Assembly: GCA_016213105.1 (NCBI GenBank)
Contig: JACRBN010000011.1
Location: 62,001 to 126,000, forward strand
DNA from: Chloroflexota bacterium
Lineage (GTDB): Bacteria; Chloroflexota; Anaerolineae; Anaerolineales; Villigracilaceae
DNA: 64,000 bases
Direction: 5' to 3'
Shown: piece after piece, positions 5,979 through 58,930 of the stretch
How positions within the stretch are numbered: the stretch's first letter is position 1
Layout of the letters: every line of letters starts with the position of its first letter
Translations under genes and position numbers: made by a program
The notes under the pieces: generated by a model
Databases searched by the model: none
Told to the model about the DNA's origin: nothing
What the model saw: the letters and a program-made list of their open reading frames with translations, nothing else

Positions 5979-7787
5979 TCATTTTCCCAACCGCGCCCGT
6001 TCCTCCACTGCCACGCTTTCTTCCAATTTTTTGAACAAGGGGCCGGGCTGATTTAACTTCTGCCCCGGCTTCAAGTCGCTGGGCAGCCAGTAGGGCAAGT
6101 TGCCAACTTGCCCTACATTACGATAACGTAGCACCGTGTGCTCGCCGAGCGAGTCCTGGACGGTTTCGGTGTACTGCTCACCGAAGAGCGGAGTCTCGTA
6201 ATTGAAGAATCCGTGCAGGCGTTCGCAGGTGAAGGGCAGGAAGGGGGCGAACAGCACCTTGAGCGAGTCGATGGCTTTCAGGGCGGTGTAGACGGTCTTG
6301 CCCGCGCCCTCCCTGTCGGTCTTGACAGCGCTCCACGGGGCATTGACGTCCAGGTATTGGTTGACGGCGGTGGCGAGTTTCATGGCTTCGCCCAGGGCGG
6401 AGCGCAGGCGCACGGCTTCGAGTTCCGCGCCGACGGTGTTGAATCCGTTGTCGATAACGGCCAGCAGGGCCAGGTCCGCTTCGCGCAACGTGCTCACATC
6501 CACATCGGGCACATACCCTTCCCAATGCTTGTAGCAGAAGGCCAGCACGCGGTTCGCCAGGTTGCCCCAGGTCGCCACGAGTTCATTGTTGTTGCGCGCC
6601 ACGAACTCGGACCAGTCCCAGTCGCTGTCCTTGTTCTCGGGCATGTTGACGGTCAGGTAGTAGCGAATGGCGTCGGGATCGAAGCGGGTCAGCACGTCGC
6701 GGCCCCACACGGCCCAATTGCGCGAGCCGCTGATCTTCTTCCCTTCCAGGTTCATGAATTGGTTGGCGGGCACATCGTACGGCAGGATCAGCGGGATTTC
6801 CTCGCCCGCGAAGATTTCCATGAACGCGCTGCCCACGCCCATCAACTCGGCGGGCCATAGCGAGGTGTGGAAGAAGATGTTGTCCTTGCCTATGAAGTGG
6901 AACTGCTTCGCGGCGGGATTGGTCCACCAATCGCGCCAGGCGTCCTTCTGACCTGAGACCTGCGCCCACTCGATGGGGGCGGAGAGGTAGCCGATGACGG
7001 CCTCGAACCACACGTAGAGTTTCTTCGTCTCCCAGCCTGCGTCGCTGACCGGGACGGGGATGCCCCAATCCAGGTCGCGGGTGATGGCGCGCGGCTTGAG
7101 TCCCTCGGCTTCGATCTTGCGCAGCGATTCGCCCAGCACAGTATCGCGCAGACGGTCGGAGCGTTCTTCGAGATATTTCTTGACGTCGGGTTCGAGTTTC
7201 GAGAGATCGATGAAGTAATGTTCGGTGTCGCGCAGTTCGGGCGAGGAGGTGTCGCCCTCGACCTTCGAGCGCGGGTTGACCAGTTTGGTGGGATCGAGCA
7301 CGTTGCCGCAGGCGTCGCATTGATCGGAGCGCGCGCCTTCGGTGCCGCAGATGTAGCAGGTGCCCTCGATGTAACGGTCGGGCAGGAAACGGTTTAGCCC
7401 GGGCGAGAACCACTGCGGCTCGACCCTGGTGAAGAGGAAGCCATTTTTCTGCAAGGCCAGGAAGATGCTCTGCGAGACCTTGAAATGATTCTCGCTGTGC
7501 GTGGTGGTGTACAGGTCGTAGGTGATACCGATCTGCTTGAACAGGTCGATGAAACCTTCGTGGTAGAACTTATACACCTCCTCGACCGGCTTGCCGAGTT
7601 TGTCCGCGCTCATCGTCACGGGTGTGCCGTGCGAGTCAGTGCCGGTAATCATTAGCACCTTGTCCCCTTTCAAACGGTGATAACGCGCGGCGATGTCCCC
7701 GGGCAGGTGCGACCCGGTCAGGTTTCCGACATGGATTTCCGCATTGGCATACGGCCAGGCGACTGCAATTAAGATATTTTCGGACAT
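5979..7787 (-). CDS. metG: Methionyl-tRNA synthetase
   Basis: A 602-residue class I synthetase that charges tRNA-Met. The HIGH motif is HVGN (residues 19-22). The zinc knuckle has Cys144, Cys147, Cys157 and Cys160. The KMSKS loop is KISGSR (351-356): the second lysine is glycine, a variant resembling the KxSSS form of some MetG1 enzymes. The anticodon-binding helices follow (NNNELVATWGNLANRV). The C-terminal linker contains nine residues VGQVGNLPY encoded exactly by a 27-bp palindrome. GGAGG lies 5-6 nt before the ATG. Upstream is a Met-rich leader ORF with terminator and antiterminator, so expression is probably controlled by attenuation. Confidence 0.97.
   Translation of the reverse strand: MSENILIAVAWPYANAEIHVGNLTGSHLPGDIAARYHRLKGDKVLMITGTDSHGTPVTMSADKLGKPVEEVYKFYHEGFIDLFKQIGITYDLYTTTHSENHFKVSQSIFLALQKNGFLFTRVEPQWFSPGLNRFLPDRYIEGTCYICGTEGARSDQCDACGNVLDPTKLVNPRSKVEGDTSSPELRDTEHYFIDLSKLEPDVKKYLEERSDRLRDTVLGESLRKIEAEGLKPRAITRDLDWGIPVPVSDAGWETKKLYVWFEAVIGYLSAPIEWAQVSGQKDAWRDWWTNPAAKQFHFIGKDNIFFHTSLWPAELMGVGSAFMEIFAGEEIPLILPYDVPANQFMNLEGKKISGSRNWAVWGRDVLTRFDPDAIRYYLTVNMPENKDSDWDWSEFVARNNNELVATWGNLANRVLAFCYKHWEGYVPDVDVSTLREADLALLAVIDNGFNTVGAELEAVRLRSALGEAMKLATAVNQYLDVNAPWSAVKTDREGAGKTVYTALKAIDSLKVLFAPFLPFTCERLHGFFNYETPLFGEQYTETVQDSLGEHTVLRYRNVGQVGNLPYWLPSDLKPGQKLNQPGPLFKKLEESVAVEERARLGK
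6090..6116. repeat. 27-bp GTAG...CTAC palindrome inside metG
   Basis: Arms GTAGGGCAAGTT and AACTTGCCCTAC are perfectly complementary around a 3-nt centre. The first base of the palindrome on the coding strand is the first base of codon 558, so it supplies exactly codons 558-566. It falls in the variable linker before the conserved LPSDLKPGQ...PLFKKL tail. Confidence 0.88.
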
Positions 7788-7876
7788 TTGTGCCTCCGTA
7801 ATTTTCTCACCACAAGGGCGCTAAGGGAAAAACCTTTGTGAACTTCGTGCCCTTTTTGTTTAGGGTTGGGGTGTAC

Positions 7877-7908
7877 AAACAAAAAGGCTGTCCGCGAAAT
7901 GGACAGCC
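7877..7908 (-). terminator. Intrinsic terminator in the metG leader (attenuator)
   Basis: On the minus strand GGCTGTCC, a 7-nt loop and GGACAGCC form a perfect 8-bp stem followed by TTTTTGTTTG. It lies between the leader ORF (stop at 7932) and metG (start at 7787), with no other gene for it to terminate. Confidence 0.85.
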
Positions 7909-7946
7909 CGTTGTGATTCAGGGGTTCTGAACTAACGTGCTCTCCA
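7900..7946 (-). promoter_or_regulatory. Candidate antiterminator pairing in the metG leader
   Basis: TGGAGAGCACGT (7946-7935, leader codons 25-28) can pair with ACGGGCTGTCCA (7911-7900) at 10 of 12 positions. The second segment contains the whole 5' arm of the terminator, so the two structures exclude each other. A ribosome at the leader stop codon would cover the first segment and allow the terminator; one stalled on the Met codons would leave it free. This is inference from the sequence alone. Confidence 0.6.
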
Positions 7947-8018
7947 GGCGCGGCAGAACATCTCCATTCGCATGGCCATGGTCATTGCCACCATTGGGAA
8001 AGCGGGTTTCGTGTTCAT
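7932..8018 (-). CDS. Met-rich leader peptide of metG (putative attenuator ORF)
   Basis: A 28-codon ORF, MNTKPAFPMVAM...RAWRAR, with seven Met codons; five of them alternate at positions 12, 14, 16, 18 and 20. Nothing else in it looks like a protein domain. It has no Shine-Dalgarno sequence, but a TAAAAT box ends 8 nt before the ATG, so the mRNA would start at or near the start codon. A terminator and a competing antiterminator follow in the order expected of trp- or his-type attenuators. The likely role is sensing of charged tRNA-Met by ribosome stalling, so metG rises when Met-tRNA is short. No experiment supports this yet. Confidence 0.65.
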   Translation of the reverse strand: MNTKPAFPMVAMTMAMRMEMFCRAWRAR

Positions 8019-8026
8019 AGGCGGCA

Positions 8027-8054
8027 ATTTTACTACAACCGTTTCGTTTCACAA
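8027..8054 (-). promoter_or_regulatory. Promoter for the metG leader transcript
   Basis: TTGTGA (8054-8049) and TAAAAT (8032-8027) are separated by 16 bp. Transcription would begin around 8018-8021, at or just before the leader ATG. Confidence 0.55.
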
Positions 8055-8198
8055 AGGAATTTTGCGCAGGCTTCCCCCGGGACGATGGCGTCCGCGCTCC
8101 TGCGACCGTTAGTTACCTGTAATGGTTTGGCCCTTCCATTTATGCTAGACTTGGATAGGATTTATCGAACTGCCCAACCACTCTATCCTGGAGGAAGA

Positions 8199-11100
8199 AT
8201 GCCATTATTCACGGGGCGAAGTCGAATACTTCACTATGGCGGGATGGGGTTTGTCCTTGGCCTGATCTTCCCCTTCCTGGGAAGCTGGATCGAGAGTGCC
8301 CTGCTTGGCCTTCCGTGGAACTGGTCTTCCTTTATCACCATCCAGCGCAGCCAGCCGCTGATTTGGTTCATCGATATTCTGCCGTTCTTCCTGTCGGCCA
8401 TCTTCATGTTGATCGGCCGTCGCCAGGAATTGGAGGCGGCGCATGCTAGGCTGGAGGAATCGGTCAGCGACCAGGACCAGCTCCTCAAATCCACGTGGGC
8501 GCTGATCGACCGCAGCGAACGGGAGTGGGAGACGCTCTTCGATGCGCTCTCCGACCCGATCTTCGTCACCGATGATGTGGGACGCATCCAGCGCTGTAAT
8601 CGCGCGGTGGCGAACAAGCTCCAGATCCCATTCAAGGACATCATCAACAAACCCGTGCTGGAGATTCTGTCGATGGGGGCCTCCGAGAACCAGGAAAATT
8701 ACCGCAACGAGCAAAACGAATTTCCGTGGCTGGGCAGGGTCTACGAGTTGTCCTCCTTTCCCATTCACGCCAAGAATTCCACCCGCCAGACCATCGTGAT
8801 CTGCCACGATGTGAGCGAGCGCAAGGCCGCCGAGCAGGAGGTATTGTGGCGCAAGGAGTATTTCGAGGCCCTGGTGAGCAGCAGCCCGGTGTCCATTGTG
8901 GTGATGGATCGGGACGAGCGCATCGTTTCCATCAATCCCGCCTTCGAAAAACTGTTTGGCTACAGCAGCCAGGAGGCGGTCGGCCAGGTGCTGGATACGC
9001 TTGTCGCCACCGAGGAGACCCTGGCGGAGGCCGCCGAATTTTCCAGGCAGATCATGCTGGGCGAGATCCACGGCATCGTCAAACGCCGCCGCAAGGACGG
9101 CGCCCTGGTGGACGTGGAACTGTCGGGCGTGCCGGTCATCGTGGCGGGCGAGAGGATCGGGGGCCTGGCCCTGTACCACGACATCACTGACCTGGTGCGC
9201 GCCCGCCGCGAGGCCGAGGATTCCAACCGCGCCAAGAGCGAATTCCTCGCCAATATGAGTCATGAGATCCGCACCCCGATGAACGGCGTGATCGGCATGT
9301 TGGAACTGACCCTCGAAACCGACCTGACCAAGGATCAGCGCGATTACCTGCAAACCTCACTGAACAGCGCCGAAGCATTGCTTTCCCTGTTGAACGACAT
9401 TCTCGATTTTTCCAAGATCGAGGCGGGCCGGCTGGAGTTCGAGAGCATCGGCTTCAACCTGCGCAACACGGTCGAGGATGTGGCCTATACCCTGGCCAAA
9501 CGCGCCCAGGACAAGGGCCTCGAAATGGTCGGCCTGGTCCACCCCGACCTGGATTTCGAACTGAGCGGCGACCCCAGCCGCCTGCGCCAGATCCTCGTCA
9601 ACCTGGTGGGCAACGCCATCAAGTTCACGCACCAGGGTGAGATCGTTATTCGCGCGGAGCCGCACGTCGAAACCGATGGCGCGCTGACGGTGCGCTTCTC
9701 GGTGCAGGATACGGGCATCGGCATCCCGGTCGAACGTCAGCGCGCCATCTTCGAACGCTTCACCCAGGCCGACGGTTCGACCACGCGCAGGTACGGTGGC
9801 ACAGGCCTGGGACTGGCCATTTGCAAACAGTTGGTCGATGGCATGGGCGGCGTCATTGGCGTGGATAGCGTGCCAGGGCAGGGCAGCACCTTCTGGTTCA
9901 CCCTGCCGTTCCGCAGGCGGCCGGTCAAAATCCAGACTGAACCTTTGCTGCCCGTCAGGGAGGTGGATTGGAAGAGCCTGCGCATCCTTGGCGTGGACGA
10001 CAACACCACCAACCGCACGGTGCTCTCGCATATCCTCGAAGGGTCTGGCTGCCAGATCGACGTGGTTTCGAGCGGGGCGAGAGCCATCGAGACCCTGCGC
10101 AAGGCGGCCCGCTCAGGCAATCCATACCACATCGTGCTGCTGGACATGCAAATGCCGGTCATGGACGGCGAACAAACCGCCCGCGAGATCAAATCCGATC
10201 CTCTCATCGCCGAGGCGAAGATCATCATCCTCACCTCCATCGGCCAGCGTGGAGACGCCGCCCGCCTCGAAGCGCTTGGCTGCGCGGGCTATTTGCTGAA
10301 ACCTGTCAAACAGCAGATGTTGTTCGAAGCCCTCAGCGCCGTGCTGGAACTGGATCATGAGGAGAAAAAAGGCCTCATCACCCGCCACACGCTTTCCGAG
10401 CAAAGGCGCGGGTTGCGCGTGTTGCTGGCCGAGGACAATCCCGTCAATCAAAAGCTGGCCGTGCTCATTTTACAAAGGTCGGGCTACTCGGTCGATACGG
10501 TGGAAAACGGCCAGGCGGCGCTGGAGCAGGCCCTGCGCGGCAATTACGACGCCATTCTGATGGATGTGCAGATGCCCGAAATGGATGGCTGTGAGGCCAC
10601 CCGCCGCATCCGCACCGCCAGGACGGGGAGCCGCATCCCGATCATCGCCATGACCGCCCACGCCCTCAAAGGTGACCGGGACCGCTGTTTGGAGGCGGGC
10701 ATGGACGATTACCTCACCAAACCCATCGAGCGGGATGTCCTGTTGCAGACGCTCGACAAATGGATTCAAGTCCCCGAGGGAGTCCGTGCCCGCGTGGAAA
10801 CGCCCACCCCGCCCGTGCCTGCCGCTGCGCCGGCCCCGTCCGCCGCGGACGAAGCGCCCATGGATTATGACGAGGCGCTGCTCCGTTTCGATAACGACCG
10901 TGCCTTTCTCGAATCCATGTGCGCCGAGTTGATCGCGGGCATCCCCACGCGCATCTCCGACATGCGGAATGACCTGCAAATGGGCAACGCCAACGATTTC
11001 TTTCGCCACGCGCACAACCTGAAAGGCATGGTGGCGAACTTCTCGGCGCGTCCGCTGGTGCGCCTGGCCGCCGAAATGGAAGCCCTGGGCCGCACCGAAG

Positions 11101-11219
11101 ATCTGACCAACGCCAGCGCGCTCCTCGCACAAATGGATGTGGAGTTTGACCGTCTGCGCGCCTTTCTGCTCGGACTTGGGATTTCGCTTAAAGCCGAGGA
11201 AAGGCAGGATGGTTTTTAG
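8199..11219 (+). CDS. Hybrid sensor histidine kinase (PAS-PAS-HisKA-HATPase-REC-REC-HPt)
   Basis: A 1006-residue membrane phosphorelay protein. Two hydrophobic segments (about 12-36 and 54-73) precede a short coiled coil, two PAS domains (about 110-205 and 220-330), HisKA with His355 ([12 protein letters not shown]), HATPase_c (N box [12 protein letters not shown] boxes DTGIGIP and GGTGLGLA), REC1 (phosphoacceptor Asp649), REC2 (Asp789) and a C-terminal HPt domain (His939 in HAHNLKG). This is a BarA/ArcB-like layout with a complete internal relay, so the output partner is probably elsewhere. GGAGGA at 8190-8195 fixes the ATG at 8199. The stimulus is unknown. It diverges from the metG leader. 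Confidence 0.93.
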
Positions 11220-12061: not shown

Positions 12062-13210
12062 TCACAAATAATCCTTGAGGTGGTGCGGTTGCTTGGGGTG
12101 TCGCAGGCGCCTGAGCGCGCGCCCCTCGATCTGGCGGATGCGCTCGCGGGTCAGGCCGAATTTCTGGCCCACCTCTTCGAGCGTGTACGGGTTGCCATCC
12201 TCCAGCCCGAAGCGCAGGCGCAGGATGTTGGCTTCGCGCGGCGGCAGGGAGGCCAGCACCTCCTCCAATTTTTCCTTGAGCATGGACTGGTACGCGCTTT
12301 GCAGCGGGGTGGGGCTGAACTCATCCTCGATGAAGTGGCCCAGCTCAGACTCGTCATCCTCGCCGACGGGAGATTCGAGCGAGAGCGGCAGCCACGAGAC
12401 CTTCAGGATCCATTTCACCTTCTCGGTGCTCATCTGCAGGGCTTGGGCGACCTCTTCCACGGTGGGCTGGCGTCCCAGTTCCTGTTCGAGAGTATGGCTG
12501 GCCTTGTAGTACTGGCGGATACGGTCGGTCATGTGTACGGGCAGGCGGATGGTGCGCGCCTGGTCCGCGATGGCGCGTGTGATGGTCTGGCGGATCCACC
12601 ACGTGGCGTAGGTGGAGAAGCGAAAGCCGCGTTTGTAATCGTATTTTTCCACGGCCTTCATCAGCCCCAGGTTTCCCTCCTGGATCAGGTCGAGAAAGGG
12701 GACGCCGCAGTTCAGGTAGCGCTTGGCCACGCTGACCACCAGGCGGGTATTGGCCTTGATGAGGTGTTCGCGCGCCAGCAGTCCCTCCTGAATGACGGCG
12801 TCCAGGCTGCGGCGCAGGGCGGCGTTGGCGCGCCCATTCAGTTTGAGCCGGTCCTTCTTCGCGCGGCGGCCGTTCTCGATGCGGATGGCCAGTTCGAGTT
12901 CCTCGTCCACGGCCAGCAGGGGCACGCGCGACATCTCCTTGAGATACAGGCTGATGGTATCCTCGCTGGTCACGACATCGGAGGGCGGGAAGTCGAATTC
13001 GGGGGTGTCTGATTCGGTGTCGGAGGCCGCATCCTCGTCGGGGTCGACGATGTCCACCCCGCGATGCCGCAGCACCGACAATAGCAGACGCACCTGTTCC
13101 GTGTTGGCGTCCGGGACCGCCTCCATCAGGTCGTCGGTGGTCAGGTAGCCTTGTATGCCAGCCTTTTCCATGAGCAAGTCGATGGCCGCTTGATGTCTTT
13201 TGTGTACCAC
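12062..13210 (-). CDS. rpoD: Primary (RpoD/SigA-like) RNA polymerase sigma factor
   Basis: A 382-residue sigma-70 protein. An N-terminal region 1.1-like segment (about 1-55) and an acidic linker precede region 1.2 ([14 protein letters not shown]), region 2 ([38 protein letters not shown]), region 3 ([16 protein letters not shown]-type) and region 4 ([30 protein letters not shown]). Region 1.1 together with the conserved 2.4 segment indicates a group 1 housekeeping sigma rather than a stress paralogue, although a second RpoD cannot be excluded. The start is GTG at 13210, with AAGGA six bases upstream. It follows yceD closely and is probably co-transcribed with it. Confidence 0.93.
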
Positions 13211-58880: not shown

Positions 58881-58930
58881 CACTTGCACCTGGCGCAAGT
58901 GCAGGTGTACGGCGGACGAACACCGCCTAC
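58881..58930. repeat. Intergenic hairpin pair
   Basis: CACTTGC and GCAAGTG with a 7-nt loop (58881-58901), then GTACGGCGG and CCGCCTAC (58907-58930), a GTAG-type palindrome with one extra base. They lie between the DegT and ceramidase-like genes, on a probable common transcript. Confidence 0.5.

Follow-up and report, generated by a model that had tools for sequence, protein, structure and literature searches.

A putative methionine-sensing attenuator with an apparently leaderless reading frame upstream of metG in Anaerolineales

The methionyl-tRNA synthetase gene (metG) of a bacterium from the phylum Chloroflexota is preceded by a methionine-rich leader that is very probably a ribosome-mediated transcription attenuator, setting the supply of the enzyme (MetRS) according to the charging of elongator tRNA-Met. 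The leader was analyzed in the sequence of a 64,000-nucleotide stretch of DNA, referred to here as the window, and in the metG upstream regions of related genomes. If this reading holds, the element would be a ribosome attenuator that senses Met, controls a synthetase gene, and operates on a leaderless reading frame, in a genome that apparently uses T-boxes for other synthetases.

Organization of the metG leader

All parts of the element are encoded on the minus strand of the window. The promoter (8027–8054) has the −35 box TTGTGA (8054–8049) and the −10 box TAAAAT (8032–8027) separated by a 16-nt spacer, and the −10 box ends 8 nt from the ATG of the leader reading frame. The reading frame (7932–8018; ATG at 8018, stop codon TAG at 7934–7932) is probably leaderless and has 28 codons with the translation MNTKPAFPMVAMTMAMRMEMFCRAWRAR. 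Seven of the codons, at positions 1, 9, 12, 14, 16, 18, and 20, specify Met; the alternating ATG codons 12, 14, 16, 18, and 20 make up the presumed stalling block of codons 12–20 (7959–7985). The 5′ strand of the antiterminator, region 2 (TGGAGAGCACGTT, 7934–7946), covers codons 25–28 and the first base of the stop codon. Its 3′ strand, region 3 (AACGGGCTGTCCA, 7900–7912), overlaps the 5′ arm of an intrinsic terminator (7877–7909) with a fold z-score of −5.3, a stem formed by regions 3 and 4 (7909–7901 and 7893–7885), and the U run TTTTTGTTT. A small hairpin, GUUCAG/CUGAAU (7916–7932), lies between the stop codon and region 3 and belongs to the long antiterminator hairpin. In the fold of the full leader, region 1 (GCUUUCC, codons 6–8, 7997–8003) can pair with GGAGAGC of region 2 (7945–7939), and this pairing is a possible anti-antiterminator for leaders without a ribosome. 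The metG gene (5979–7787) has the Shine-Dalgarno sequence GGAGG (7797–7793) and encodes a 602-residue methionine–tRNA ligase that scores above the cut-off of the NCBIfam model TIGR00398.

The preliminary description of this locus, with a promoter, a 28-codon reading frame containing seven Met codons, a terminator, and metG in this order, was correct in every sequence detail checked. It had also proposed a pairing of codons 25–28 with the strand containing the 5′ arm of the terminator; TGGAGAGCACGTT and AACGGGCTGTCCA can indeed form 11 base pairs, and the stretch 7950–7898 folds into a single hairpin of −20.3 kcal/mol with a z-score of −3.5, which none of 200 shuffled sequences equaled. The upstream neighbor, a histidine-kinase-like gene (8085–11219), is located on the plus strand and is divergent from the leader. 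Therefore, the terminator most likely serves the metG leader.

Two further features of the surroundings were recorded. A sigma-70-type gene is located at 12062–13210, about 4 kb upstream of the leader and beyond the divergent histidine-kinase-like gene; in 16 of the 183 distinct metG upstream regions described below, a sigma-70-type gene ends less than 600 nt before metG (L014, L015, L017, L022, L027, L066, L067, L069, L072, L074, L092, L103, L104, L106, L107, and L116). The spacer between the terminator and metG (window 7877–7800; L004, L007, L008, L012, L018, and L065), inspected by eye, often contains long imperfect palindromes, among them those of the CACAAAGG...CCTTTGTG or ATTGCGAGG kind, which differ from genome to genome.

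Occurrence of the leader and conservation of its Met codons

The metG genes of relatives and their upstream DNA were gathered by protein search, from named genome contigs (mostly titled Anaerolineales, Anaerolineae, or Chloroflexi), and by place. Four of the 195 loci were removed because they lacked a metG start (L082, L085, L091, and L186), and the remaining 191 were reduced to 183 that are distinct in their last 250 nt; 29 of the 183 upstream regions are shorter than 600 nt. Matches to metG were found in 153 of 251 genomes, 53 of which were left out of the retrieval. The other 98 genomes have no match at E ≤ 1e-80, and therefore the phylum sample covers only genomes with a query-like metG.

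A leader was accepted under a strict rule if the reading frame had at least three Met codons within nine codons after the start and a terminator no more than 110 nt past the stop. This layout is present in 80 of the 183 upstream regions, compared to 3 of 1694 control windows of 600 nt taken from elsewhere in the longer loci of the same set. When amino acids were compared under the strict rule at metG upstream regions, Met ranked first with 80 and Arg second with 37. A looser rule, requiring two Met codons and a start 5–10 nt downstream of a −10 box, added 11 of the remaining 103 upstream regions and none of the 1694 controls. Strict and looser matches, in this order, were found in the genome of the window itself (1 of 1), in its family (29 and 3 of 33), order (6 and 5 of 20), class (2 and 0 of 9), and the rest of the phylum (2 and 0 of 69), as well as in the named contigs (45 and 4 of 58), a set biased to close relatives. 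The absence of a Met-rich reading frame or terminator in close relatives had been named as an outcome that would speak against attenuation; the layout is present in 32 of the 33 family members. In one family member (L027, genome G004), the promoter, an antiterminator-like strand, and the terminator are kept and the Met run is gone, as judged by eye; this is perhaps a decayed attenuator, and thus a loss rather than a contradiction.

Upstream regions L102, L116, and L090 appear leader-like by eye and are outside the counts. A second architecture, with a GCAGTTC/GAACTGC hairpin around the stop codon, a GCTGG-type terminator, and fewer Met codons, was seen in L009, L017, L066, L068, and L071; the switch in these leaders may involve more alternative pairings.

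A covariance model of the element (R1) matches the metG leader in its own genome with E 6e-25, and the next match has E 0.05. The model was applied to 25 genomes, and up to 150 candidates were scored per genome; matches at E ≤ 1e-8 were obtained in nine of the genomes, always at metG. Four of the weaker matches away from metG (L219–L222) were rejected as Met leaders by eye. One of them, L221 (genome G011), has a terminator before a reading frame that by eye resembles 2-isopropylmalate/homocitrate synthase, and is perhaps another attenuator. A search of a plasmid collection gave no match to the leader.

The leader reading frame looks leaderless, as the preliminary description had suggested. The −10 box ends 6–8 nt before the leader start codon in 65 of the 80 leaders, and a motif resembling a Shine-Dalgarno sequence is present before 1 of 80 leaders, compared to 79 of 80 for metG. 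The −10 box has the sequence TAAAAT or TAAACT in 61 of 80 leaders, and 54 of 77 have a 17-nt spacer. In 45 of 80, the −35 box agrees with TTGACA at five or more of six positions; TTGTGA of the window agrees at four. The automatic choice of the leader start was too short in some loci (L042, L044, L076, L077, L120, L138, and L022). A search of the own genome for further leaderless leaders, which required TTGACA and was thus blind to the metG leader, returned ten matches with no obvious leader peptide and is uninformative.

The alignment of related metG upstream regions, proposed as a check in the preliminary description, shows that the Met codons are kept and the rest of the peptide is drifting. 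Alignment A1 contains 66 of the 69 leaders with the GCTGTCC/GCTGCCC stem type (L020, L028, and L092 were omitted). In 44 pairs of nearest-neighbor leaders, the codons ahead of the antiterminator strand were compared: a change was seen in 10 of 219 internal Met codons and in 365 of 778 other codons. The Fisher p-value of 7e-37 overstates the difference, because columns with Met may be favored by the peptide alignment and because of kinship between the pairs. Among single-base changes, the synonymous share is 0.263, compared to 0.220 expected (p = 0.054), and the peptide outside the Met codons thus bears little sign of selection. The Met codons are conserved, and the peptide as such hardly so.

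These data bear on the possibility that the reading frame encodes a small conserved protein with its own function, and that the terminator only sets the ratio between this protein and MetRS. The frame is kept across a wide group and Met is its most conserved residue, as would be expected of such a protein; however, the drift of the other codons between near neighbors and a synonymous share barely above random make this reading very improbable. The length of the reading frame also varies among relatives, and an in-frame insert of 27 nt is present in 7 of the 66 aligned leaders. Three of the copies (L005:1338–1364, L008:3506–3532, and L100:1222–1248) match exactly a dispersed palindromic repeat, CACTTGCACC NNN CGCAAGTGCAGGTG, which has three matches in the own genome of the window, for example at 58881–58907; variants are found in the leaders of L046, L049, and L065, and a diverged copy in L056. 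The conserved end of the peptide, W-x-A-R, coincides with the antiterminator strand, which also counts against this reading. L084 has a copy of the repeat downstream of its leader.

Matching of the stems and geometry of stalling

Alignment A2 contains 53 of the 80 leaders, chosen by eye for one common register. The antiterminator has standard base pairs in 94.6% of the cells of this alignment, compared to 23.5–55.4% when slid, and the terminator is paired in 100% of the cells. One antiterminator pair changes from CG to UA in 6 of the 53 rows (five alike and L060). The preliminary description had named compensatory changes in both stems as support. The number of double-changed antiterminator pairs in the 53 rows is one, which is not above that in shuffled alignments (mean 1.1); the number of double-changed cells and the covariation score are above shuffles, with none of 500 as high.

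The comparison between different stems is the stronger test because the shared stem is so conserved, and its outcome is favorable. In 11 leaders with about seven kinds of stem, region 2 pairs with its own terminator arm at −14.35 kcal/mol on average, compared to −10.71 kcal/mol with permuted arms (p = 0.00005, the lowest value that the test can return). With four leaders of the GCTGTCC, GCTGCCC, or related type added, the values for the 15 leaders are −15.71 and −11.19 kcal/mol. The 15 leaders were hand-picked, and among the main 11, L009, L017, and L069 share a GCTGG stem and L107, L117, and L125 a GCCAGC stem. The own region ranked first for its arm in 8 of the 15 leaders, and third in L001. 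Leaders L107, L113, L120, and L129 have little in common and yet match their own arms.

Across all 80 leaders, the final 20 nt up to the stop codon pair best with the terminator arm (mean −13.6 kcal/mol, compared to −6.3 to −9.8 kcal/mol for other windows); in 39 of 80, every other window of the upstream stretch pairs less well with the arm. Shuffles of single leaders are weak tests, with p ≤ 0.05 for the pairing of regions 2 and 3 in 32 of 80. Such modest statistics would be compatible with a constitutive partial terminator next to a Met-rich reading frame arisen by chance; the excess of the layout over control windows, the conserved Met codons, and the matching stems make this the least probable of the explanations considered. 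For regions 1 and 2, p ≤ 0.05 was obtained in 19 of 78 leaders. The hairpin of codons 6–8 with codons 25–27, moderately supported across relatives, may well form and would then complete a four-part trp-type logic.

The positions of the Met codons fit ribosome occlusion in most leaders. Measured from the start of the last Met codon, the distance to the antiterminator strand has a median of 15 nt in the 80 leaders, and is 12–25 nt in 65 of them. Fifteen nucleotides correspond approximately to the leading edge of a ribosome that holds the codon in its A site. In the 13 leaders with a distance of less than 12 nt, a ribosome stalled on the last Met codon would cover part of the antiterminator. In 53 of 80 leaders, the distance between the end of the antiterminator strand and the stop codon is −1 to 2 nt, so that a terminating ribosome would cover the strand.

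Folding of the leaders with the ribosome footprints removed gave structures that depend on the position of the ribosome. With the ribosome stalled and region 4 not yet made, the antiterminator of regions 2 and 3 is predicted in 70 of 80 leaders; with the ribosome at the stop codon, the terminator is predicted in 80 of 80. Once region 4 has been made, the equilibrium structure of leaders with a stalled ribosome is the terminator in 74 and the antiterminator in 5 of the 80. Therefore, the antiterminator must win kinetically, because the terminator is the more stable structure in most leaders. In leaders without a ribosome, the pairing of regions 1 and 2 is predicted in 52 of 80 before region 4 is made and in 59 of 80 afterward.

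Proposed mechanism and relation to known systems

At the gathering score, no Rfam family matches the leader and no T-box (RF00230) is found in the window; a search at E ≤ 5 over 7600–8300 returned neither a T-box nor a SAM riboswitch, and its two matches were microRNA models at chance level. A T-box or SAM riboswitch at metG was rejected on these searches. Twenty chosen from the 103 metG upstream regions without a strict match (19 without any leader match, and L119, which passes the looser rule) contain no T-box and no known RNA family that would fit metG control; their sole Rfam matches are a tRNA and two microRNA models, below the cut-offs. The own genome has seven T-box matches elsewhere (L196–L202). 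The two above the family cut-off precede trpB and pheS, and those below it precede ileS, thrS, serS, and a branched-chain aminotransferase gene, with one unassigned match near the PF00133 gene of C21 (downstream reading frames identified by eye). T-boxes at other synthetase genes of the genome lend some plausibility to methionine-dependent control without ribosome stalling, whether through a T-box, through a SAM riboswitch, or through protein binding to the leader RNA. However, the Rfam results, together with the Met codons and their 15-nt spacing, which such control leaves unexplained, render it even less probable than a functional small protein.

Attenuation by a stalled ribosome of the trp/his type, as in the preliminary description, is the reading favored by the conservation of the Met codons, the matching of the stems, and the spacing. 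From these features, we infer where the transcript starts, that the leader is translated, and how stalling and read-through would respond to methionine. Transcription would start at or beside the first base of the leader start codon, and a ribosome would initiate without a Shine-Dalgarno sequence. If Met-tRNA is ample, the ribosome would reach the stop codon and mask region 2, regions 3 and 4 would form the terminator, and RNA polymerase would halt before metG. If Met-tRNA is scarce, the ribosome would stall within codons 12–20 with its leading edge short of codon 25. Region 2 could then pair with the nascent region 3, the terminator would form too late, and metG would be transcribed.

Methionine is special in that its synthetase, unlike all others, also supplies charged initiator tRNA. 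It is conceivable, albeit rather doubtful, that the leader senses methionine twice: the leaderless start would depend on initiator tRNA and the internal codons on elongator tRNA, and MetRS charges both. A mild shortage would stall elongation and raise metG expression, and failed initiation would let the hairpin of regions 1 and 2 and the terminator form. Such a switch, if real, would separate a shortage of the amino acid from a general loss of translation.

To our knowledge, little is known about the regulation of MetRS outside T-box control. A search of the open-access literature, which mostly excludes subscription papers, found no leader-peptide attenuator at metG or sensing Met; within this search, the element appears to be without precedent. 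In a large lineage represented here chiefly by metagenome assemblies, a conserved and apparently leaderless Met attenuator would offer a clean test of whether attenuation can be driven by leaderless ribosomes. It also raises the question of why several synthetases of one genome would be controlled by T-boxes and metG by a leader peptide. T-boxes bind tRNA directly, with no ribosome or leader peptide, unlike the metG leader. In Staphylococcus aureus, a T-box riboswitch controls methionine genes through tRNA-Met, according to ref. PMC3771891, and in this it resembles the proposed metG switch.

Attenuators of synthetase genes are known for pheST in gamma-proteobacteria and for trpS and leuS in Streptomyces, as described in part of ref. 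PMC1262725; they likewise control synthetases by attenuation, for other amino acids and in other phyla than the metG leader. The same part of that source reports no conserved RNA structure at the methionine operons of Actinobacteria and does not name metG. A 2010 survey of attenuation at aminoacyl-tRNA operons by Lopatovskaya et al. is cited in ref. PMC4833913. In the ilvBNC operon of Corynebacterium glutamicum, the transcript starts one nucleotide from the start codon of the leader peptide, according to ref. PMC11857589, which also cites a work whose title concerns a leader peptide formed with no ribosome binding site; both points resemble the leaderless start proposed for the metG leader. 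The ilvBNC attenuator differs from the metG leader in responding to branched-chain amino acids, in controlling a biosynthetic operon, and in its hairpins.

A further comparison is with attenuators of the trp/his type. The details of E. coli trpL-type attenuators serve here as the reference. The metG leader shares with them a reading frame rich in the sensed amino acid, a strand common to the antiterminator and terminator, a terminator before the structural gene, and possibly the pairing of regions 1 and 2. By contrast, the metG leader would sense Met, control a tRNA synthetase instead of biosynthesis, and lack a Shine-Dalgarno sequence, and its antiterminator strand lies within the last codons of the leader.
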